From the NCBI RefSeq assembly GCF_006335115.1, contig NZ_VDMJ01000006.1, positions 219,883 to 264,701 on the forward strand: 44,819 nt of DNA, in the 5' to 3' direction. Origin of the DNA: Streptomyces sp. NP160. Lineage in GTDB: Bacteria; Actinomycetota; Actinomycetes; Actinomycetales; Quadrisphaeraceae. Under the pieces are notes generated by a model. The model saw only the letters and a program-made list of their open reading frames with translations, was not told where the DNA came from and made no database searches. Below, piece after piece: positions 9,597-28,514 of this stretch. A program made the position numbers and the translations under genes. Position 1 is the first letter of the stretch. Each line of letters starts with the position of its first letter.

Positions 9597-10595
9597 GTGG
9601 GCGCGGCTCTGGTGCGGCGGGCTGCCGCCTCGGCGGTGGCCGGCGCGCTGACCCTGGGCGCGCTCGCCGCCTCCGTGGTCGCCCCGCCGCCGGCGCAGGC
9701 GGCCACCGCCCCCGCGCGCTGGTGGGGCCCGGACCGCTACGCCACCGCCGCGGCGGTCTCCCGCGAGGCCTTCCCCGACGGCGCGCACGACGTCGTGGTG
9801 GTGAGCGGCACCCGCTTCCCCGACGCCCTCGCCGCTGCGCCCCTGGCGGCGCAGCTGGGCGGCCCGGTGCTCACCGTGCCGCCGGGGCCGCTGCCCGCCG
9901 TCGTGCGCACCGAGCTGGAGCGGCTCTCCCCGGCGGTGGTGCACGTGGTGGGCGGCTCCGCGGTGGTGGGGGACGACGTGGCGCAGCAGCTGGCCCCGCT
10001 GGCCTCCGAGGGCGTGGTGCGGCTGCAGGGGGCCGACCGCTACGAGACCGCGGCGTCCGTGGCCACCACGGACTTCTCCGGCGCCTCGGAGGTCGTGCTC
10101 GCCTCGGGGCAGGACTTCCCCGACGCGCTCGCCGCCGGCTCCGCCGGGGCTGCGCTGGGCTCCCCGCTCCTGCTCACCGAGCGCGGCGCGCTCCCCGGCC
10201 CCACCAGGGCGGCGCTGACGGCGCTCGCGCCGACGCGCATCACGCTGGTGGGCGGACCCGCGGTGGTCACCCCGGACGTGCAGCAGCAGCTGCGGGCGCT
10301 GCTGCCGGACACCGTGGTGGTCCGGCTCTCCGGCGACGACCGCTACGCCACCGCCGCGGCGGTGGCGCGCGACACGTGGGAGTCGGTGCCCTCGACCCTG
10401 CTCGCCAGCGGGGAGGTCTTCCCCGACGCCCTCGCCGGCGCCGCGCTCGGCGCCCCGCTCCTGCTCACCCGCCGCGACTGCCTGCCCGCGGCCACCGCCA
10501 AGGCCTACGCCGACCTCGGCGTGCAGCAGGTCACCGGCCTCGGCGGAGCGGCCGTGCTGTCCGACGCCTCGCTGACGGCCACCCCCTGCCGGTGA
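9597..10595 (+). CDS. Secreted protein with three cell-wall-binding repeats (CWB2, PF04122)
   Basis: A 332-aa exported protein. The signal peptide has an Arg pair, a hydrophobic core (ASAVAGALTLGALAASVVA) and a probable cut after PAQAA. Three consecutive CWB2 modules follow, each starting with a DRYATAAAV or DRYETAASV motif (near residues 46, 146 and 250). Each continues with a VVVSG/VLASG strand, the FPDALAAA/FPDALAAG/FPDALAGA motif, and a VVGG/LVGG/GLGG turn. In Clostridium, three CWB2 modules form a trimeric unit that binds secondary wall polymers. No enzymatic domain is present, so the protein may be a bare wall-binding unit. GACGGT ends six bases before GTG 9597, fitting a leaderless start. 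It converges on the aminotransferase gene. Confidence 0.88.
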   Translation: MGAALVRRAAASAVAGALTLGALAASVVAPPPAQAATAPARWWGPDRYATAAAVSREAFPDGAHDVVVVSGTRFPDALAAAPLAAQLGGPVLTVPPGPLPAVVRTELERLSPAVVHVVGGSAVVGDDVAQQLAPLASEGVVRLQGADRYETAASVATTDFSGASEVVLASGQDFPDALAAGSAGAALGSPLLLTERGALPGPTRAALTALAPTRITLVGGPAVVTPDVQQQLRALLPDTVVVRLSGDDRYATAAAVARDTWESVPSTLLASGEVFPDALAGAALGAPLLLTRRDCLPAATAKAYADLGVQQVTGLGGAAVLSDASLTATPCR

Positions 10596-13656: not shown

Positions 13657-13765
13657 GCACTTTCCGCGGAAAGTCCGCCAAGGACCCCCGCCCATGTGGC
13701 ACTTTCCGCGGAAAGTGCGCCAAGGACCCCCTCCCGGTTCGCGCTTTCGGCGGGAAGTGCGAACC
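13657..13765. repeat. Three palindromes in 42-bp tandem register
   Basis: The 20-base palindrome GCACTTTCCGCGGAAAGTGC is perfect at 13699-13718. A copy with one mismatch is at 13657-13676 and a diverged copy (GCGCTTTCGGCGGGAAGTGC) at 13741-13760, which is extended by GGTTC/GAACC arms to 13736-13765. The centres are exactly 42 bases apart. The first two units also share the spacer GCCAAGGACCCCC. They lie between two terminators in a convergent intergenic region, and no credible gene overlaps them. Confidence 0.8.
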
Positions 13766-13780
13766 AGGGGGAGGACGACG

Positions 13781-13816
13781 ACGAGGGCCGCCCGGCGGGT
13801 GCCGGGCGGCCCTCGT
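13781..13816. terminator. Strong hairpin terminator of the exosortase operon
   Basis: A perfect 16-base stem (ACGAGGGCCGCCCGGC and its complement) with a GGGT loop lies 30 bases beyond the wecB stop codon. It would end transcription of the minus-strand operon and could also stop read-through from the plus strand. Confidence 0.8.
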
Positions 13817-13845: not shown

Positions 13846-15042
13846 TCAGCCGTGCGGCGGCCGTCCCGCGGCGTCCGGGACGGTGGCGAGGAGCTCCTCG
13901 AAGGGGCGCAGCGGGCCGGCGAGCGGACCCGTGACGCCGAGGGCCAGGTCGGCGATGCGCTCGCCGGCCCGCCCGTCGCCGTAGGGGCTGGGCGTGCGGG
14001 CCAGCCTCGCCAGGTGCTCGGGGCGCAGCAGCTCCGCGGCCGCCTGCGCCACCCCGGCCGGACGCGACAGGCGGCAGAAGCCGGCCGCCACGCTCTCGGG
14101 GCGCTCGGTGGTGGTGCGCACCACCACCATGGGCCGGCCCAGGACGGTGACCTCCTCCTGCAGGCCACCGGAGTCCGAGACCACGAGCACCGCGCGCTCG
14201 ACCAGCGCCAGGAACGTCGCGTGGTCGACCGGCTCGACCAGGTGCACCGAGGCGGGCACCGGGAGGCCCCACGCGGTGATGCGGGCGGTGGTGCGCGGGT
14301 GCGCCGGCAGCAGCACGGGGGCCGGGAGGTCTCCCAGGGCGCCGAGCAGGGCGGTCAGGGCGGCGGGGTCGTCGGTGTTCTCCGGCCGGTGGACCGTGGC
14401 CAGCACCACGTCGTCCCGCTCGAGCCCGGCCCGGCGCAGCACGTCCTGCGCGGCCCGCGGGCCGTGCGGGCCCCGCAGCGACGCGTGCACCGCCTCCACC
14501 ACGGGGTTGCCCGTGACGTGGACGGCGTGGGGGTCGGTGCCGGCGCGCAGCAGGTTCGAGGCGCTCTCGGCGGTGGGGGCGCAGTGCACGTCGGCGAGGG
14601 CCCCGATGAGCAGGCGGTTGACCTCCTCCGGCATCCCGCGGTCCCCCGAGCGCAGTCCCGCCTCGACGTGCACCACGGGCAGGCCGAGGTAGTGCGCGGC
14701 CTGGGCGCCGGCGTTGGCGCTGTTGGTGTCGCCCTGGACCAGCACGGCGGAGGGAGCGAGCTCGCGCAGCTGCGCTGACAGGCCGACCACCATCGCGGCG
14801 ACCTGCTCGCCGCGGGCCAGGCCCGCCAGCGACGCGGCCGGTGCGGCGACGTCGGTGAGCCCGCACGCCTCCACGAAGGACCCGGCGAGCGCCCGGTCGT
14901 AGTGCTGGCCCGTGAGCAGCGTCCGGGCGCGGGCACCGCGCGCGGCGAGCGCGTGCACGACCGGCGCCATCTTGATGATCTCCGGTCGGGTGCCCATGAC
15001 GACGGCGACGGTCCGCCCGTCCGCGCGACCGCGGGAGCTCAC
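13846..15042 (-). CDS. wecB: UDP-N-acetylglucosamine 2-epimerase (non-hydrolysing)
   Basis: A 398-aa GT-B-fold epimerase that converts UDP-GlcNAc to UDP-ManNAc. VAVVMGTRPEIIKMAPVVHA is the family's N-terminal signature and LLTGQHYD and VQGDTNSA follow. VEAGLRSGDRGMPEEVNR holds catalytic residues, ATVHRPENTD and LPAHPRT line the UDP pocket, and VVSDSGGLQEEV binds the nucleotide in the C-terminal domain. Length matches the family. Its start overlaps the stop of the anchored-protein gene by four bases (GTGA), so it is the last gene of a five-gene translationally coupled operon. ManNAc or a derivative may feed the polymer made by the upstream GT2; that link is inference. There is no adjacent wecC. 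Confidence 0.92.
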   Translation of the reverse strand: MSSRGRADGRTVAVVMGTRPEIIKMAPVVHALAARGARARTLLTGQHYDRALAGSFVEACGLTDVAAPAASLAGLARGEQVAAMVVGLSAQLRELAPSAVLVQGDTNSANAGAQAAHYLGLPVVHVEAGLRSGDRGMPEEVNRLLIGALADVHCAPTAESASNLLRAGTDPHAVHVTGNPVVEAVHASLRGPHGPRAAQDVLRRAGLERDDVVLATVHRPENTDDPAALTALLGALGDLPAPVLLPAHPRTTARITAWGLPVPASVHLVEPVDHATFLALVERAVLVVSDSGGLQEEVTVLGRPMVVVRTTTERPESVAAGFCRLSRPAGVAQAAAELLRPEHLARLARTPSPYGDGRAGERIADLALGVTGPLAGPLRPFEELLATVPDAAGRPPHG

Positions 15043-15863
15043 GAGGCACCCCCGGCGGCGTGCGGCGCGGGGGCCGGCCGCAGCGCGCGGCGGGCGGCGC
15101 CCGCCACCACGGCGGCGCCGGCCAGCGCGATCGGCAGGCCCGCCGCGGGCACGGCGGGGGTGGGGACGACGACGGCGTTGCGTCCGCAGGTGACGGCGCC
15201 GACGCGCACCGCTGCGGTGCCCGACAGCAGGCCCAGCTGCAGCGCGGTGGTCGACACCGGGCCGGCGGTCGCCTGCGTGCCGGTGGACCCGGTGCTGACC
15301 GAGACGAGGCCGAGGAGGCTGCCGCTGGTGCCGGCGCTCACCGCGGCGGTGGCGCCGAGAGGTCCGGTGAGCTGGCCGCCGATGATGGTGGTCTTCGTCG
15401 ACGAGGTCCCGGTGCTGCTGGCGGTGCAGCTGGAGACGACGGCGTCAGCGGTCAGCACGACCGTCGACGTCAGGGCGATCCGCACCCCTCCGCTGCCGGC
15501 GCTGACGGCGCACGTCCCGCCCGGGCCCACCACCACGCCGCCCCCGCTGCCCACCAGGCCCGCGCACGAGCCCGAGAGGCCGGTGGCGAAGGCGCGCACG
15601 TCCGCCACCGCCACGCCGGCCGTGACGATGCTCTGACCGCCCAGCACCCCGCTCGGGGTGGGGCCCCGGTCGTCGGAGGTGCCGTCGCTGGAGGCCGAGA
15701 CCGGTGCGACGGCGAGGTTCGCACCCGCCGCCGTCGTGACCGTCAGCGGGCTCGCGGTGGCCTGCGAGGTGTCGGCCTGGGCGGCGCCCACCGGCACCGC
15801 CACGAGGGCGGCGGTGAGCACCGCGGCCGCCGTCGTCGTCCTCCGCCAGCTGGTCGTGCTCAT
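15039..15863 (-). CDS. Secreted Ser/Thr/Gly-rich protein with a PEP-CTERM-like C-terminal anchor; probable exosortase substrate
   Basis: A 274-aa protein. The signal peptide has Arg residues, the core AAAVLTAALVAVPVG and an AQA cleavage site near residue 30. The mature part is a low-complexity, beta-rich Ser/Thr/Gly/Val/Ala sequence with four cysteines (in GSCAGL, GTCAVS, SSCTAS and VTCGRN), enough for two disulfides. The C-terminus is tripartite: VPTPAVPAAGLP, a short hydrophobic helix (IALAGAAVVAGAA) and the basic cluster RRALR. This resembles PEP-CTERM-type sorting signals. The mature part is reminiscent of actinobacterial 'choice-of-anchor' proteins found next to exosortases. ATG 15863 overlaps the GT2 stop (ATGA) and has AGGAGGA upstream. 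Substrate status is inferred from sequence and context. Confidence 0.75.
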   Translation of the reverse strand: MSTTSWRRTTTAAAVLTAALVAVPVGAAQADTSQATASPLTVTTAAGANLAVAPVSASSDGTSDDRGPTPSGVLGGQSIVTAGVAVADVRAFATGLSGSCAGLVGSGGGVVVGPGGTCAVSAGSGGVRIALTSTVVLTADAVVSSCTASSTGTSSTKTTIIGGQLTGPLGATAAVSAGTSGSLLGLVSVSTGSTGTQATAGPVSTTALQLGLLSGTAAVRVGAVTCGRNAVVVPTPAVPAAGLPIALAGAAVVAGAARRALRPAPAPHAAGGAS

Positions 15864-17290
15864 CGCTGTCCTCCTGCGGTGGTCTCGGCGTGCTCGGGCG
15901 TCCGGGGGCGGGGGATGGCCCCCGCCGGCGCTGCGGCCGGCGCGACGCGGCGCGCGGTCTTCTTCCAGTCGGTGCGGCCGCGCACGGTGCGCCAGAAGGC
16001 CCACCACACGGCGACCTGCAGCAGGTAGGCGTAGGCGGCGTTGGCCACGGACAGCAGCGCCGCGCGGCGCCGCGTGACGTGCCCGCCGGTGGTCTCGCGG
16101 TACAGCGGCCCCCACATGACGTGCGGGACGATGCCGAAGACCACGGCGAGGGGCAGCAGCCCCCAGGCCCCGCTGACCCACCAGCCGGACGCGCCGCCCG
16201 CGGTGGACAGCGCGTAGTGCACGTCCACGGCGATCGCCGCCGGGAAGACCACGGCGCCGACGAGCTGCGTCCACGGCACGGACAGGTAGTAGGTGATCTC
16301 CAGGGCCGCGGTGAGGGGGACGTTCGGGGAGGTCACCACCTGCCACCAGTACCTGGCGCACTGCATGCCGCCCTGGGCCCACCGGCTGCGCTGCCGCAGC
16401 AGCGGCTTCACGGTGCGCAGCCCGGTCTGGGCCACGAAGGTCTCCCCGCAGTACTCGGTGCGCCCGCCCGTGAGCAGCACGTGCAGGCCCAGCTCGAAGT
16501 CCTCCAGCAGCGAGCCGTGCCAGGGCGAGCCGTGCTCGGCGGCGATCCGGTCCAGCGCCGACAGGCGCGTGAACTGGCCGTTGCCGCCCATGCCGACGCT
16601 GCCGGTGGCGCGCCGCAGGGTCTGCATGGCCGCGATGGGACCGGAGAACTCCAGGTCCTGCAGCTGCACCAGGAGGGGGTCGCCGCCGGGTGCGCGGGAC
16701 GTCGCGAGCTGCAGCGGGCAGGTGCTCGTCAGCGCGTCGACGTCCTCCACCACGCGCACCAGCACCTGCACCGCGGAGACGGTCGGGTCGCCGAAGAGCG
16801 TGGGACCGCACACGGTGGCCAGGCAGGACCTGTCGAGGCGGGCGTCGGCGTCCACCACGCCCACCACGACGCGGGTCCGGTCGACCTCGGGCCCGAGCGC
16901 CGCGTCGATCGCGCGCCAGGCGGCGTTGAGGGCCGCGCCCTTGCCCTGCCGCGCCTCGGGGAGGCGCCGGCTGACCAGGCGGACCTGCGGGCGGGTGGCG
17001 GCCAGCTGCGCGAGCAGGGTGCCGGTGGCGTCGGAGGAGGCGTCGTCGACGCACCAGACGACGGCGTCCGGGAAGGTGGTGACGAGGTGGTCGACCGTGC
17101 CGACGACCACGCCCTCCTCGTCCAGGCACGGGACCACGAGGTGGAAGGCGTGGTCGGCGCGCGCCGCGGGGAGGTGGTCGCCGCGGCGCACGAAGCGGTG
17201 AGTGATGAGCCCGACGTACGCCAGGAAGGCCACGCAGAGCAGGAACGCCGCGGTGTTCAGCAGCGCCAGCCAGGAGCGGGGGTCATCCAC
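15860..17290 (-). CDS. Membrane-bound processive GT2 glycosyltransferase (polysaccharide synthase)
   Basis: A 476-aa protein. An N-terminal membrane helix (AFLLCVAFLAYVGLITH) leads to a cytosolic GT-A domain, and three to four membrane helices form the C-terminal third. Catalytic motifs of processive beta-glycosyltransferases are all visible: CVDDASSDAT, GVVDADARLD (DxD), LLEDFELGLH (the ED acceptor-base motif) and QRSRWAQGG (QxxRW). This organisation matches synthases of hyaluronan, cellulose and poly-GlcNAc type; the sugar cannot be told from sequence. GTG 17290 lies inside the end of the exosortase gene (8-base overlap), and its stop overlaps the next start by four bases. Being co-translated with an exosortase and wecB suggests exopolysaccharide production linked to surface-protein anchoring. 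Confidence 0.88.
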   Translation of the reverse strand: MDDPRSWLALLNTAAFLLCVAFLAYVGLITHRFVRRGDHLPAARADHAFHLVVPCLDEEGVVVGTVDHLVTTFPDAVVWCVDDASSDATGTLLAQLAATRPQVRLVSRRLPEARQGKGAALNAAWRAIDAALGPEVDRTRVVVGVVDADARLDRSCLATVCGPTLFGDPTVSAVQVLVRVVEDVDALTSTCPLQLATSRAPGGDPLLVQLQDLEFSGPIAAMQTLRRATGSVGMGGNGQFTRLSALDRIAAEHGSPWHGSLLEDFELGLHVLLTGGRTEYCGETFVAQTGLRTVKPLLRQRSRWAQGGMQCARYWWQVVTSPNVPLTAALEITYYLSVPWTQLVGAVVFPAAIAVDVHYALSTAGGASGWWVSGAWGLLPLAVVFGIVPHVMWGPLYRETTGGHVTRRRAALLSVANAAYAYLLQVAVWWAFWRTVRGRTDWKKTARRVAPAAAPAGAIPRPRTPEHAETTAGGQR

Positions 17291-17864
17291 GGCGCACCCC
17301 CCTCGCCCCGCGGGTCACCAGGAAGAGGAAGAGCAGAGCGGCGCCCACCACGCCGACGGTGCTGACGGTGGTGCCCACCAGCACGTGCGTGGCGGAGTAG
17401 CCGCGCTCCAGGCCGAGCGCGCGGATGCCGCAGAGGATCACCAGCAGCCGCACCTGGTTCGTCACCGCGACGACGGCGACGGCGGCGCCGAGGGCCGCCA
17501 GCGTGCGGGGCGCCGAGGCTCGCTGGAGCGTCAGCACCAGACCCGCCGCGAGCAGGAACGGCACCAGGAGGAAGGCGACGGTGCAGCCCAGGGTGATGCC
17601 GTAGCCGACGGCGCGCCCGTCCAGGTCGAAGGTGACGGCGGTGCCGACGCGCTGGACGTCGGGCGTGCCGACGGCCCTCGCCACCTGCTCCGAGACCGCG
17701 GCCTCGGCGACCCGCAGCCACCGGCCGCCGACCAGCACGGCGACGACGGCGGTGGCGGTCCCGGCGGCGACGGCAGGCCTGGCCAGCCCGAGGTCGAGGT
17801 CGTTCTCGACCGCCAGCGCCGCGAGCTGCTCGCGCGGTGACGCCGGGGTGGCGGGGGTGCTCAC
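17283..17864 (-). CDS. Exosortase/archaeosortase family transpeptidase
   Basis: A 193-aa integral membrane protein with four to five helices. The conserved active-site trio of the exosortase/archaeosortase superfamily is recognisable: Cys94 in GYGITLGCTVAFLLVP, Arg139 in VTNQVRLLVILCG, and His160 in GYSATHVLVGTTVS, each at the start or end of a membrane helix as in the family. The superfamily cleaves C-terminal PEP-CTERM-like signals on the outer face of the membrane and transfers the protein to a surface acceptor. It is short relative to proteobacterial EpsH, like other actinobacterial and archaeal forms. GTG 17864 overlaps the upstream stop by four bases. The likely substrate is encoded two genes downstream. 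Confidence 0.83.
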   Translation of the reverse strand: MSTPATPASPREQLAALAVENDLDLGLARPAVAAGTATAVVAVLVGGRWLRVAEAAVSEQVARAVGTPDVQRVGTAVTFDLDGRAVGYGITLGCTVAFLLVPFLLAAGLVLTLQRASAPRTLAALGAAVAVVAVTNQVRLLVILCGIRALGLERGYSATHVLVGTTVSTVGVVGAALLFLFLVTRGARGVRRG

Positions 17865-18799
17865 CGGGTGGCCCGGTGGCGGGCGGAGAGCAGGTCGCCC
17901 TCGGCCGCCACCCAGACCTCGGCCAGGGACGTCTGCCCGCGCCGCACCGCGCTCCCGGCGCGCGCCTGCGGCGCCGCCGAGCGGAGCTGCTCGAGCACGC
18001 GCTCGGAGACGGCGAGCGGTCCCTCCTCGGGGGTGCTGGTGGACAGGACGCCGAACTGGCGGGCGCCGGTGCGGGCGACGACGCCGGCGGAGCCCGAGGA
18101 CTCCCGCAGCGCGCCGGCGAGCCGGCGGAGAGCGCGGGTGGAGCTGACGGTGCCGACGTCCACCACGGTGACCGCGGCCGGCTCGGCCAGGGAGCGGCCG
18201 CGGTCGTCCTCGTGCTGGAGCAGCTGGCCCCACGAGCGGCGGTCGGGCAGGCGGGTCAGGTGGTCGCGGCTGGACGGCTTCCGGGCCCAGTCCTCGCGGC
18301 GCTCCTGGTCCACGCGGTGCAGCTCCCGCGCCAGCGTGGCGCCGAGGAAGGAGGCGTTGCGCGTGACGCGGGCCCGCAGGGCGTCGTCGTCGGTGGTGGG
18401 CGTCCTGGACCAGCCGCACAGGGAGCCGACCAGGCGGCCGCCCTGGAGCAGCGGCGCGCCCACGTAGGCGCGCAGGCCGAAGCGCTCGGCCTTGGCGCGC
18501 ACCTCCGGGTCGCGGCGGCGGCGCAGGTCACCCGCGAGCGCCGCCTCCGGGCCGCGCTGGAGGGAGGCGCACAGCGTGTCCTCCCAGCGGTGCTCGGCAC
18601 CCACCGGGACGACGCAGCCCTCCGTGCCGGCCAGCACGGTCCAGCCACCGGCGACGACGCGGGCCACGCCCCACATCTCGAACCGGTCCCCGGCGTCGGC
18701 CGCCAGTCCGTCGAGGGTGAACGCGGTGCACGGCTCCCACAGCGCCGCTCCACCCGACACCTGGACCGCCAGCGCACTGTGCTCGACCAGCGTGGTCAT
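17861..18799 (-). CDS. GAF protein with degenerate GGDEF domain, first gene of the exosortase operon
   Basis: A 312-aa soluble protein. A GAF domain occupies about residues 10-160 (FTLDGLAADAGDRFEMWGVA, FGLRAYVGAPLLQGGRLVGS). A C-terminal region (about 175-310) keeps the diguanylate-cyclase skeleton: RDHLTRLPDRRSW corresponds to the usual DxLTGLxNRR. The GGDEF signature is replaced by TGARQFGVL, so cyclase activity is not expected. It may bind a ligand or GTP and regulate the operon products. ATG 18799 has GGAGGGG just upstream. Its stop overlaps the exosortase start (GTGA), so it is translationally coupled as the leading gene. The divergent AAA/LuxR regulator begins 274 bases away. Confidence 0.75.
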   Translation of the reverse strand: MTTLVEHSALAVQVSGGAALWEPCTAFTLDGLAADAGDRFEMWGVARVVAGGWTVLAGTEGCVVPVGAEHRWEDTLCASLQRGPEAALAGDLRRRRDPEVRAKAERFGLRAYVGAPLLQGGRLVGSLCGWSRTPTTDDDALRARVTRNASFLGATLARELHRVDQERREDWARKPSSRDHLTRLPDRRSWGQLLQHEDDRGRSLAEPAAVTVVDVGTVSSTRALRRLAGALRESSGSAGVVARTGARQFGVLSTSTPEEGPLAVSERVLEQLRSAAPQARAGSAVRRGQTSLAEVWVAAEGDLLSARHRATR

Positions 18800-19073
18800 G
18801 GTTCCCCTCCAGAGAGCTCCGCCGGTCTCCGCCCGCGCCTCTCGAGCGGATCCGGTGCTGGAGTGGTCGGCGGTCGCTCGGGGCGGCCGGAGGCCTCTGC
18901 CCATGACGGGTCGCCGGCCTGAGGGTGAGGACCTGCGGCGCTGCCCCCGGTGCGCGGAGGGGCTGGCCGCCACGGCGCGGCAGGGCGCGGCGCGCGCGGT
19001 GCAGCCGGGGGCGGTTCCCGGTCGGCGCCCACGAGGTGGGTTCCTCGGGCACTCCTTCTAGTACTTTTTGCCA
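18800..19073. promoter_or_regulatory. Divergent intergenic region between exosortase operon and AAA/LuxR regulator
   Basis: This 274-base gap should contain promoters for both directions. On the plus strand, TAGTAC (19059-19064) ends nine bases before ATG 19074, consistent with a leaderless transcript. A heptamer CTTCTAG occurs twice, at 19055-19061 and 19077-19083, one copy on each side of the start codon. The stretch around 19060-19075 is unusually AT-rich for the window. I see no gene and no clear minus-strand -10. Confidence 0.4.
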
Positions 19074-21926
19074 ATGCTTCTAGGTAGGGGAGCGCAGAGG
19101 CAGGCGCTCACCTCCGCGCTCTCCCGGGCGGCGACCGGTCAGGGGGCTTCGGTGCTGATCACCGGGCCACCGGGCAGCGGCCTCAGCGCGCTCCTCGAGG
19201 AGCTGGCCGAGGCGGCCTCCTCCGCCTCCGCGGACTGGCTGGTGCTGCGCGCCCGCGCTGCGCGGGATGAGTCCTCCCTGCCGCACGCCCTGCTCCACCA
19301 GGTGCTCAGCCCCCTGCTGGCCGAGCTCGACGGTGTGCTCGACGAGGGCCGCCGCTCCGCGCTGGAGGCCGCCGTCGGCGTCCGCGCCCCGGACGAGGGC
19401 CGGGTGCCCGTGGCGATGGCCGCCCTCGGAGCCCTGGAGGTGCTCGCCCGCCACCGCCCGGTGCTGGTGGCCGTGGACGACGCGCACTGGGCGGACCCGG
19501 GCAGCGCCGCCGTCCTCCGCTTCCTCGCCCGCCGGCTCGCCCGCACCGCGGTGTGCCTCGCGCAGGTGCTGCCGGACGAGCAGATGGCGCAGCCCCCCGC
19601 TGAGGCGGCAGCCGGCCGGACCGGGGGTGCCGGGACCGACGAGGTGGTGGTGGTGGTGGTGGAGCCCCTCGGCGACGCGGACTCGTTCGCCGTCATCGAC
19701 GCGGAACGACCCGACCTCGACCCGCTGCTGCGCACCGCCGTGGCCGAGCTGTCGGCCGGCCGTCCCCGCAGGCTGGTGGACCTGGCGCGCCTCACCGAGC
19801 CGCTCGGCGCGGCGGCCGGGCCGGACGCGCTCCGCCGGAGGCTGCTGCGCGGCTCCCCGCACCCGTCGGTGGCCGCGGCCCGCCGGGCCCTGGACGGGGT
19901 GCCTGAGGACGCGCGGCGCGAGCTGGCCGCGCGGGGGCTGCTCGACGACCCGGCCGGCGCGCACCTCACCGCCCTGGTGGCGCGCACGGGCACGGCCGCC
20001 GGGCAGCAGGCCGGCGCCCACGACCGGCTCTCTGCGGGGGAGCCCCCCGCGGCCGACCTCCTCCTGGCCGCCGTCGCGGCCGAGGCCGCAGAGGAGGCCG
20101 AGACGGCCGAGCTCCGCGCGGCCTGGGCGCTGCGCCTGGAGGAGGCCGCCCCAGCGGCGCCGCCCGCCGCGGGCCGGCGGATGGCGGCCGAAGCGCTGCG
20201 CCAGCGCGTGCTCGCCGACCCGGCGGCCGCGGCGGGCCTGGCAGGTCCCCTCGAGGCTGCGGCGCGCTCCCTGCTCGGGGTGGACGCCCAGCGCAGCGGG
20301 GAGCTCTTCGCCCTGGCCGCCGACCTGCACCTCGCCGCCGACGGCGGGAGCGGCGCAGCGGAGCCCGGCTCGGCCGGCGCTGCCGCGCTGCACCGGGCGG
20401 CCGAGGTGGCGCTCGCAAGCGGCCGCACCGGGCGCGCCCACGACCTGGCTGCGCGCGCCGCAGCGACGGACGGCGGGGGTGCTCGCAGCAGCGCCTCCTC
20501 CGGAGCGCACGAGCGCTGGCGCGGGCTCGCGGCCCTGGCCCGCGGCGACCGGGCCGCCGCCGTGGAGCACCTGCAGGACGCGCTGGGCCACCTCGCGGCC
20601 GCGGCAGCCACCGCGCAGGGCCCCGGGGTCGCCGGAGGTGAGGGGGACGCCGGCGCGTCGGGAGCAACCGAGGAGGTCCTGGCCACCGGCACGGCGCTCG
20701 TGCTGGTGGCCGGACGCCGCGCGAGGCCGCTCGCCGCGCTGGACGCCGCCCTGCCGGTGCTGCCCGCGGACGTCGCCGCCCGGCTGCGCTCGGTCTCCCG
20801 GCTCGCCCTGCCGTGGGACCGCACCGGCCCCGCGGAGCAGCGGCGCGCCCTGGACGACGCGCTCGAGGTGCTCTCGGGCGCCGGACTGCCGGTGCTGCGC
20901 CTCGCAGCCGACGCCGGCCGCCTGCTCGGCCGGAGCCAGCAGGTGGGCAGCCTCTGCCGGTCGATCGCGGCCGCCTGGCCCACCACCGGTCCCGCCGCGG
21001 TGGACCTCCACCTGGCCCTGGTCGCGGTCTCGCTGGACCTCACCGGGGTCCCGGAGGCGCGCCACCACGTGCAGCAGGCGCGAGCGGCGCTGCGCCACGC
21101 GCCCGAGGCGGCCGCGGCCGTCGGGCAGGCCGAGCTGCTCCTGGAGCGCCTGGGGAGCGGCCAGGTCCCGGACGGGGCGCTGCCGGACGCCGTCGACCTG
21201 CCCGAGAGCACGGAGCGCTCCGGCGCCGTGTGGTGCCGCGCCCACGCCCACCGCCTGCGGGGGGACCTGGCCGCAGCGGCCGCGGAGCTGCTCGCGCTGT
21301 GGCCGCCGGACGGCGCCCCCGCCGACGCCGGCGCCCTCCTGAACGCCCTCCCCACGGTCCATGCGCTGCGCGAGTCGGGTGCGGACCCGGCGGCCCTGGC
21401 CCGCGTGGTCGAGCAGGTCACCGCGTGGGCCGCCGGCAGCGGGGCGCCGCTGGCGGTCTCCAGCGCCCTCGCGTCGCGCGCCACCGCCAGCGAGGACCCC
21501 GCCGAGCAGCGGGCGCTGCTGGAGGAGGCGGTCGCGGCTGCGGGCCAGGGGCCGGCGGCCGCGGCGCCGCAGCTGGCCCTCGGCATGCTGCTGCGCCGCT
21601 CGCGGCACGGGGTCTGGGCGCGCGAGCCGCTCGGGGCGGCCCTGCGGATCTTCGAGGACCACGGCTCCACGGCCTTCGCCGAGCTCGCGCGCCGAGAGCT
21701 CGAGGCGACAGCGCCCCAGCGCCCGCCCCGCCCGATGGGGTCGGCGGTGCTCACCGGCCAGGAGCGCACCGTCGCGTCGCTGGCGGCCAAGGGCCTCGCC
21801 AACGCCGACATCGCCCGCAGCCTGGGGATCAGCGCGCGCACGGTGGCCCACCACCTCCAGCACGTCTACGCCAAGCTCGGGGTGCCCGGTCGACAGCACC
21901 TCCGGGCCCGGCTGGAGGACCGGTGA
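19074..21926 (+). CDS. Large AAA-ATPase/LuxR-type transcriptional regulator
   Basis: A 950-aa protein with the layout of MalT/LAL regulators. An N-terminal nucleotide-binding domain (LLGRGAQRQALTSALS, ITGPPGSGLSALLEEL, VLVAVDDAHWADPGSAAVL) is followed by a long Ala/Leu-rich helical region of probable TPR-like repeats (about 330-870). A C-terminal LuxR HTH (about 890-950) reads LTGQERTVASLAAKGLAN and SLGISARTVAHHLQHVYAKL. The Walker B region DDAHWAD is intact, but in Walker A (GPPGSGLS) the lysine is replaced by leucine, so ATP use may be altered or lost. It is divergent from the exosortase operon and could regulate it (inference). ATG 19074 is preferred; TTG 19068 is an in-frame alternative. 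Confidence 0.87.
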   Translation: MLLGRGAQRQALTSALSRAATGQGASVLITGPPGSGLSALLEELAEAASSASADWLVLRARAARDESSLPHALLHQVLSPLLAELDGVLDEGRRSALEAAVGVRAPDEGRVPVAMAALGALEVLARHRPVLVAVDDAHWADPGSAAVLRFLARRLARTAVCLAQVLPDEQMAQPPAEAAAGRTGGAGTDEVVVVVVEPLGDADSFAVIDAERPDLDPLLRTAVAELSAGRPRRLVDLARLTEPLGAAAGPDALRRRLLRGSPHPSVAAARRALDGVPEDARRELAARGLLDDPAGAHLTALVARTGTAAGQQAGAHDRLSAGEPPAADLLLAAVAAEAAEEAETAELRAAWALRLEEAAPAAPPAAGRRMAAEALRQRVLADPAAAAGLAGPLEAAARSLLGVDAQRSGELFALAADLHLAADGGSGAAEPGSAGAAALHRAAEVALASGRTGRAHDLAARAAATDGGGARSSASSGAHERWRGLAALARGDRAAAVEHLQDALGHLAAAAATAQGPGVAGGEGDAGASGATEEVLATGTALVLVAGRRARPLAALDAALPVLPADVAARLRSVSRLALPWDRTGPAEQRRALDDALEVLSGAGLPVLRLAADAGRLLGRSQQVGSLCRSIAAAWPTTGPAAVDLHLALVAVSLDLTGVPEARHHVQQARAALRHAPEAAAAVGQAELLLERLGSGQVPDGALPDAVDLPESTERSGAVWCRAHAHRLRGDLAAAAAELLALWPPDGAPADAGALLNALPTVHALRESGADPAALARVVEQVTAWAAGSGAPLAVSSALASRATASEDPAEQRALLEEAVAAAGQGPAAAAPQLALGMLLRRSRHGVWAREPLGAALRIFEDHGSTAFAELARRELEATAPQRPPRPMGSAVLTGQERTVASLAAKGLANADIARSLGISARTVAHHLQHVYAKLGVPGRQHLRARLEDR

Positions 21927-28180: not shown

Positions 28181-28249
28181 GGAGGCTCCCGGGGCGCGAC
28201 GCAGCGGTCCTCCCCCTCAGTCACCCTCCAGTGAGCTCCTGAGTCGCCT

Positions 28250-28355
28250 CGCCCGCGCGGTCCTGGTGCCTGAGAGGTTCCGGGGAGGGTTGCCCCTTCG
28301 GCGCCCTGCTCGCCGACGGTCCGTCACCGGTCCGGCGTCAGGGCTCTCCCGCGCG
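28250..28355 (-). promoter_or_regulatory. Glycine riboswitch upstream of gcvP
   Basis: On the minus strand the conserved glycine-aptamer blocks occur in order: GGGAGAG (P1 strand, 28350-28344), GCGCCGAAGGGGCAA, GGAACCTCTCAGGCACCAGG, and GGACCG (ending near 28258). A GCGAGGCGACTC segment follows, possibly a remnant of a second aptamer, so this looks like a singlet. A TACCGT box at 28378-28373 could be the promoter -10. The gcvP start lies about 70 bases downstream. Glycine binding would be expected to switch gcvP on; the expression platform could not be folded by eye. Confidence 0.85.
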
Positions 28356-28514
28356 GGATGAACAGCAGCACCACGGTACCCCGTCAGCGCGTCGCCCGGG
28401 ACCGGCGGAACCGGGTCCGCGGAGCCGCCCGCCGGGTGCGCCGCAGCAGGTGGCACGCTCTGGGCCGTCCGACCGGACCCCGTGCAGACACCCGAGACGA
28501 CCGGAGGAGCCCCC

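Follow-up and report, generated by a model that had tools for sequence, protein, structure and literature searches.

The window, a stretch of 44,819 nucleotides from Streptomyces sp. NP160 (contig NZ_VDMJ01000006.1), was found to carry a minus-strand operon of five overlapping genes, which probably encodes an exosortase sorting system that has one dedicated substrate in the genus and is wired to an amino-sugar polymer pathway. The five open frames run in the order GAF/GGDEF protein, exosortase, glycosyltransferase family 2 protein (GT2), secreted protein and UDP-GlcNAc 2-epimerase (WecB). A first-pass annotation of this DNA had proposed the same arrangement, adding that anchoring is coupled with polymer synthesis into a single process and that a ManNAc-containing polymer may be the acceptor. 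The exosortase, its catalytic trio and its co-occurrence with a tailed protein, GT2 and WecB were upheld by our analysis; the coupling into one process and the ManNAc polymer as acceptor stay at the level of proposals.

The overlapping operon and its products

The operon comprises the following features:

17861..18799, minus strand: protein of 312 amino acids with a GAF domain and a degenerate GGDEF domain (Pfam domains; homologues at related loci).
17283..17864, minus strand: exosortase of 193 amino acids with Cys94, N136-x-x-R139, H160-x-x-x-G164 and Glu54 (TIGR04178; alignments; AlphaFold2 model).
15860..17290, minus strand: membrane GT2 polysaccharide synthase of 476 amino acids, close to the XrtP-associated type (NF053846 and Pfam scores; tree).
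15039..15863, minus strand: putative secreted substrate of 274 amino acids, diverged CoaP-like, with a signal-peptide-like start (identity to relatives; AlphaFold2).
15042..15188, minus strand: predicted C-terminal sorting tail of the substrate, with CGRNAVVVPTPAVP, a hydrophobic helix (residues ~240-260) and basic residues (alignment of 12 tails).
13846..15042, minus strand: non-hydrolysing UDP-GlcNAc 2-epimerase WecB of 398 amino acids (TIGR00236).

All five frames and the four overlaps originally annotated were present. The overlaps are GTGA between the GAF and exosortase genes (17864-17861), the 8 bases GTGGATGA between the exosortase and GT2 genes (17290-17283), ATGA between GT2 and the secreted protein (15863-15860) and GTGA between the secreted protein and WecB (15042-15039). 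Conservation of the gene order in related genomes, a suggested check, was observed in 4 of the 6 genomes of the window's genus, probably Quadrisphaera, and the order was the same at the other three same-genus loci (L053-L055; L numbers denote loci and G numbers genomes). At these three loci the 8-base overlap and each of the two 4-base overlaps downstream of it were kept in 3 of 3 cases, and the GAF-exosortase overlap in 1 of 3. Four Klenkia/Modestobacter loci (L090, L092, L098, and L099) were found to have GTGA at the exosortase-GT2 junction and GTGA or ATGA between the secreted protein and WecB, letters that permit the same kind of 4-base overlap; a fifth (L091) has GTGA at exosortase-GT2, and its contig ends before the remaining junctions. 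Gene order and junctions are retained in other genera, where GT2 identity is 41-65%, and this persistence in relatives argues that the operon pattern goes beyond chance.

The assignment of the second gene as an exosortase stood when examined with hidden Markov models. Its product passed the cut-off of the exosortase/archaeosortase superfamily model TIGR04178 (28.1 bits versus 23; 30.1 bits in a scan of 394 genomes of the class) and missed the cut-offs of XrtP, XrtR, and XrtS, with XrtP (NF012139) as the best specific match (73.4 versus 200 bits). It was the single exosortase match of the window genome, both with the exosortase as query and with TIGR04178. Residues R29, E54, C94, N136, R139, G151, H160, and G164 were invariant in all 12 aligned exosortases, and E54, C94, N136, R139, H160, and G164 were invariant in all 27 GT2-linked exosortases found by profile; hence, loss of the Cys94/Arg139/His160 trio was seen in none of these homologues. 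The AlphaFold2 model of the enzyme had a mean pLDDT of 86.

The GT2 product aligned with NF053846, the model of the 'XrtP-associated glycosyltransferase', over nearly all of its 440 positions at 474.7 bits, which is below the cut-off of 520, and matched Glyco_tranf_2_3 of Pfam at 66.1 versus 27 bits. Its score against PgaC/IcaA (TIGR03937) was 62.6 bits, below the cut-off of 422. The sequence carries DAD, ED, and QRSRW, which we take to be the motifs of a processive GT2. The product of the last gene passed the WecB model TIGR00236 (286.6 versus 210 bits), in agreement with its annotation as a UDP-GlcNAc 2-epimerase, and was the one such match in the window genome.

The secreted protein begins with a signal-peptide-like stretch and ends in VPTPAVP, a hydrophobic stretch and basic residues. 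The tail had been described as PEP-CTERM-like, which held for its plan of motif, hydrophobic helix and C-terminal basic cluster (short in the window, RRALR) and failed for the PEP motif itself: in 12 aligned tails C, G, N, P, P, P, G, and R were invariant, and PEP was found in none. When the tail profile was run on the six genus genomes, one strong match (E ≤ 1.1e-14) was detected in each of the four that bear an exosortase and nothing else below E 0.009 among the candidates scored (150 of 327-427 per genome). AlphaFold2 predicted a beta-rich protein (mean pLDDT 74) with the helix at 240-260 in a low-confidence part, and the best match of a structure search had an E-value of 0.0066 and a TM-score of 0.14. 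Identity was 83, 58, and 50% to the same-genus homologues, 36% to the Modestobacter protein of L090, and 37% each to those of Micromonospora (L094) and Klenkia (L098). No NCBIfam family matched the protein, including the CoaP models NF040603 (choice_anch_P, cut-off 27 bits) and NF053845 (cut-off 35 bits) at E up to 1; NF040603 likewise had no match in the window genome at E up to 10, nor in the substrates of L053 and L055. The relatives at L094, L098, L038, and L039 pass NF040603, and those at L090 and L093 do not. Assignment to choice_anch_P by score was thus rejected, as there was no match and the probability from a direct comparison of profiles was 2% for L038/L039. Nonetheless, because it is 37% identical to the L094 and L098 proteins, which pass choice_anch_P, we interpret the secreted protein as most plausibly a diverged member of the CoaP type, although the model itself does not match it.

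Linkage of exosortase, GT2 and tailed protein

Searching the 394 class genomes for the GT2 family returned some match in 384, of which 7 passed the NF053846 cut-off; only 36 matches outside the window genome exceeded 170 bits, with a gap from there down to 95 bits. All 36, three genus loci and the window's own made up the 40 loci examined, and an iterated profile detected an exosortase in 12 of these. A search for relatives by GT2 only, which reached Quadrisphaera, Modestobacter, Klenkia, Mangrovihabitans, Micromonospora, Streptomyces, and one metagenome-assembled genome, found an exosortase directly upstream of the GT2 in 12 of 12 loci, two of which lie on genus contigs already in the set. 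Neighbors were tabulated for 22 exosortase loci and 28 exosortase-free loci with a GT2 of the same subfamily; L088 and L089, which duplicate the contigs of L054 and L055, were excluded from the 22, and L119-L126 are outside the table, with L120-L124 included in the tree and among the 27 exosortases. Consistent with the annotated co-occurrence, a tailed secreted protein was found nearby at 19 of the 22 exosortase loci versus 2 of the 28 others (L071 and L073; Fisher P = 8.7e-9, kinship ignored). Kinship among the loci (four Quadrisphaera, four Klenkia, three Micromonospora, and two near-identical Streptomyces) means that P-values overstate their independence. The tail rule was home-made (signal-like start, hydrophobic stretch, P before it and at least two K/R after it), fixed early and applied without change thereafter; the size limit of 150 amino acids and the distance limits of 3.2 kb (between midpoints, on the same strand) and, for WecB, 3.5 kb were chosen after viewing the lists. 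Pairwise distances of the exosortases correlated with those of the GT2 proteins (Spearman 0.87; 0 of 2000 permutations as high).

The bodies that carry these tails differ, including (i) CoaP-type proteins at L038, L039, L094, and L098; (ii) an ice-binding protein at L065; and (iii) Ig/cadherin-like proteins at L061 and L064; no family was assigned to the bodies at L041 and L044. Across these bodies the tails agree in plan, and since the same plan sits on different bodies, we take the recurring tail to be characteristic of a sorting signal. The L065 protein (L065:5658-6569), with its ice-binding-like domain (PF11999, 166.9 bits), is a probable exosortase substrate.

Within the genus, an exosortase, a full-length GT2 and a window-type WecB were each present in 4 of 6 genomes, one of which (G011) has a second WecB, 41% identical, besides the window type. 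The other two (G008 and G009) had no exosortase or WecB match and no full-length GT2; further GT2 matches in genus genomes, one of them in G009, were short and weak. In the class, an XrtP search matched 10 of the 394 genomes, none over the cut-off (best 111.9), and 9 of the 10 matches adjoin a GT2, the tenth (G325) being weak (E 2.2e-4). TIGR04178 matched 12 of the 394, own genome included, namely those nine, G023, G045, and G052. Exosortases are therefore rare in the class sample, and in 11 of the 12 genomes that have one a GT2 adjoins it: nine of the NF053846 type and two more distant (G045 and G052, 29-31% identity, WecB nearby). The exception was G023, where tblastn detected no GT2 or WecB in the 16 kb examined. 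In all but two of the 12 (exceptions G281 and G023), hence in 10, WecB lay no more than ~4 kb from the GT2. The annotated company of exosortase, GT2 and WecB extends over several actinobacterial families. A phylum sample of 396 genomes contained 7 with an exosortase match, own included. Among five of the other six that were examined, a GT2 adjoins the exosortase in G752, G579, and G616, and no GT2 was found beside it in G699 and G482, whose contigs measure 10.6 and 4.2 kb; G450 gave a partial weak match. Two exosortase loci (L119 and L125), with no GT2 match in the stretch examined, encode large proteins with PEAP/PESP-type tails and are perhaps a different kind of exosortase in the phylum.

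The GAF/GGDEF gene is a looser companion. Pfam detected the GAF domain at 23.8 versus 22.4 bits and GGDEF at 27.6 versus 23.8 bits, the latter below the NCBIfam cut-off (27.3 versus 37.4). As the annotation of a dead GGDEF had it, GG(D/E)EF is replaced by GARQF, and the protein would not count as an active diguanylate cyclase; G-x-R-Q-F or a similar motif was present in all 15 aligned stretches, the window's included, and GGDEF in none. Homologues of the protein (E 1e-8) were found at 10 of the 22 exosortase loci and none of the 28 exosortase-free loci, including the window, three same-genus loci, five Klenkia/Modestobacter loci (two copies each) and one Mangrovihabitans locus. None was found in the Micromonospora and more distant loci examined, and the gene is therefore not a constant part of the system. 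Its product is probably a regulator or sensor.

Proposed mechanism and competing explanations

The reading that we favor builds on the gene order, overlaps, conserved residues, cross-family linkage and single strong tail match per genome described above. WecB, which catalyzes the conversion of UDP-GlcNAc to UDP-ManNAc, would supply this nucleotide sugar, and the membrane GT2 would polymerise and export an amino-sugar chain from these precursors. The signal peptide of the CoaP-like protein would direct its secretion, and the tail would keep it in the membrane. The exosortase, through Cys94/Arg139/His160, would cut near VPTPAVP and transfer the freed C-terminus to a membrane or wall acceptor. 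The beta-rich CoaP body may then hold the polymer at the cell surface, with the GAF/degenerate-GGDEF protein probably tuning expression or synthesis.

Several points weigh against this reading. Cleavage and its position near VPTPAVP, transfer, the use of UDP-ManNAc, retention of the polymer and regulation are all steps that we infer. The context of the exosortase Cys is CTV, the Cys-x-Gly of EpsH being missing, and neither a sequence search nor a fold search of the PDB returned a similar structure. No tailed protein lay within 3.2 kb at L041 (nearest 7.2 kb), L097, and L091 (contig end); under the same rule the distant loci L120, L122, and L123 have one and L121 and L124 do not. WecB had no match at L041/L097, the near-identical Streptomyces loci, or within the stretch examined at L093 and L122. 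Three tandem substrate paralogues with similar tails lie behind one exosortase-GT2 pair at L057 (L057:10181-12598), so one substrate per enzyme is not general. On the GT2 tree at least four changes of exosortase linkage are required; therefore, the exosortase-GT2 link is not one unbroken inheritance. Moreover, WecB was within 3.5 kb of the GT2 at 18 of 22 exosortase loci versus 20 of 28 exosortase-free loci (P = 0.51), and WecB alone thus provides no tie of ManNAc to anchoring.

WecB was ruled out as a mark of the exosortase system, as it accompanies the GT2 with or without an exosortase. Because it follows the GT2 also where the exosortase is missing, GT2 and WecB look like a core polymer module to which exosortase and substrate would be an added sorting module. 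Seven chosen proteins from exosortase-free loci were scanned and included four with DUF2334 (L047, L049, L058, and L066), one GH113 (L047) and one BcsB-like (L071), neighbors that would fit polysaccharide synthesis. The four GT2-WecB loci with DUF2334 perhaps represent a separate amino-sugar polymer pathway of Actinomycetes.

A tentative alternative with a real chance of being correct is that the exosortase acts like the haloarchaeal archaeosortase ArtA, cutting the tail and joining the protein to a membrane lipid, with the GT2/WecB polymer separate and only co-expressed. ArtA shares the superfamily signature TIGR04178, which the control genome of Haloferax volcanii matches, and PMC7157517 describes ArtA substrates as lipid-anchored. 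This explanation gains from the 20 of 28 loci with GT2 and WecB and no exosortase and from the linkage changes on the GT2 tree, and loses from the GT2 adjoining the exosortase in 11 of the 12 exosortase-bearing class genomes. It overlaps the dedicated sorting system favored here, for which the acceptor is left unspecified.

We consider it unlikely that the exosortase is a protein-to-polysaccharide ligase, in which case the GT2 chain or a ManNAc lipid-linked start would be the covalent acceptor of CoaP. If so, the sorting enzyme, the acceptor synthase, the enzyme for the acceptor sugar and the substrate would form one overlapping operon, and the exosortase-GT2-WecB pairing would mirror the acceptor chemistry of the group. 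To our knowledge, the acceptor of bacterial exosortase substrates is not settled. With enzyme, substrate and polymer pathway in one compact operon, this system lends itself to asking what exosortase substrates become attached to; named strains exist in Quadrisphaera, Klenkia, Modestobacter, and Micromonospora, and each exosortase-bearing Quadrisphaera genome has a single strong substrate tail.

Less probable still is that the C-terminal helix serves simply as a membrane anchor and stays uncut, with the exosortase serving otherwise, for example, in polymer export. Cutting of the helix is indeed something we infer, and two Streptomyces loci combine exosortase and GT2 with no tailed protein within 3.2 kb; however, similar tails occur on different bodies, the catalytic residues do not vary, and the tail occurs once, strongly, in each exosortase-bearing genus genome. 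Short gene overlaps are common in compact GC-rich genomes, yet a chance neighborhood of a surface-polysaccharide locus is hardly credible, as order and junctions persist in other genera and the exosortase, full-length GT2 and WecB are jointly absent from two genus members.

Known systems and surroundings of the operon

Actinobacterial exosortases had been presented as much less studied than those of Gram-negative systems, a view to be tempered, as NCBIfam already holds models for XrtP, XrtR, XrtS, the XrtP-associated glycosyltransferase and CoaP. The exosortase P models (XrtP NF012139, glycosyltransferase NF053846, and CoaP NF053845 and NF040603), which we take from their names to form one system, cover the same three components in the same phylum as the window, and at the relative locus L038 (G287) the cut-offs for the GT2, choice_anch_P and CoaP_CTERM are all exceeded. 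In contrast, the window falls below the XrtP and GT2 cut-offs, its substrate has no match, and its operon includes WecB and the GAF/degenerate-GGDEF gene. Since these cut-offs are missed and the substrate is 37% identical to relatives that pass choice_anch_P, the window represents a diverged branch of the system that NCBIfam models.

Other systems are more remote. The XrtG system of Firmicutes, described in PMC12854382 as a CTERM protein, XrtG and two glycosyltransferases, similarly joins an exosortase, a tailed protein and a glycosyltransferase in a monoderm; however, TIGR03111 did not match the window GT2 at E-values up to 1 (L090 and L093 scored ~10 bits versus 364), and the XrtG description in PMC12854382 names no WecB, which the window operon has. 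With PEP-CTERM/EpsH the window shares N-x-x-R and H-x-x-x-G, given as EpsH motifs by Haft 2006 (PMC1569441), as well as the motif-helix-basic tail and the exopolysaccharide link; it differs in having no PEP and no C-x-G, in being monoderm and in having one substrate per genus genome by tail profile. Actinomycetes are named in PMC1569441 among the lineages without a PEP-CTERM/EpsH example. A cyanobacterial exosortase study (PMC12188702) links exosortases and PEP-CTERM proteins to the holding of surface polysaccharide. In the open-access literature searched, an exosortase-GT2-WecB rule for exosortase-bearing actinomycetes was not encountered, XrtP with exosortase had no match, and exosortase with UDP-GlcNAc 2-epimerase returned nothing on topic by title.

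One further feature lies directly after the operon:

13782..13815, minus strand: perfect 15-bp stem with a 4-base loop, without a T run (sequence).

This stem-loop is a possible transcript end; a terminator scan, which needs a T run, did not report it, and the terminator and promoter scan was otherwise unproductive. Just after the operon, the perfect palindrome CTTTCCGCGGAAAG occurs at 13660-13673 and 13702-13715 in a repeat of ~42 bases. It has 21 sites in the genome, several of them 41-42 bases apart, versus 0 for the pattern read backwards, and represents a dispersed palindromic repeat family. A scan of the window for RNA families found only a glycine riboswitch aptamer, away from the operon (28248-28361, minus strand; 53.8 versus the Rfam gathering score of 32). 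Divergent from the operon is a large, putative LuxR-type regulator (19068-21926, plus strand; labeled from its C-terminal end), a homologue of which adjoins the operon in L054 and L055, with none found in L053. On the other side, the secreted protein at 9597-10595 (plus strand) presumably resembles a cell-wall-binding repeat 2 protein, and genes similar to it lie downstream of the operon in L053-L055.

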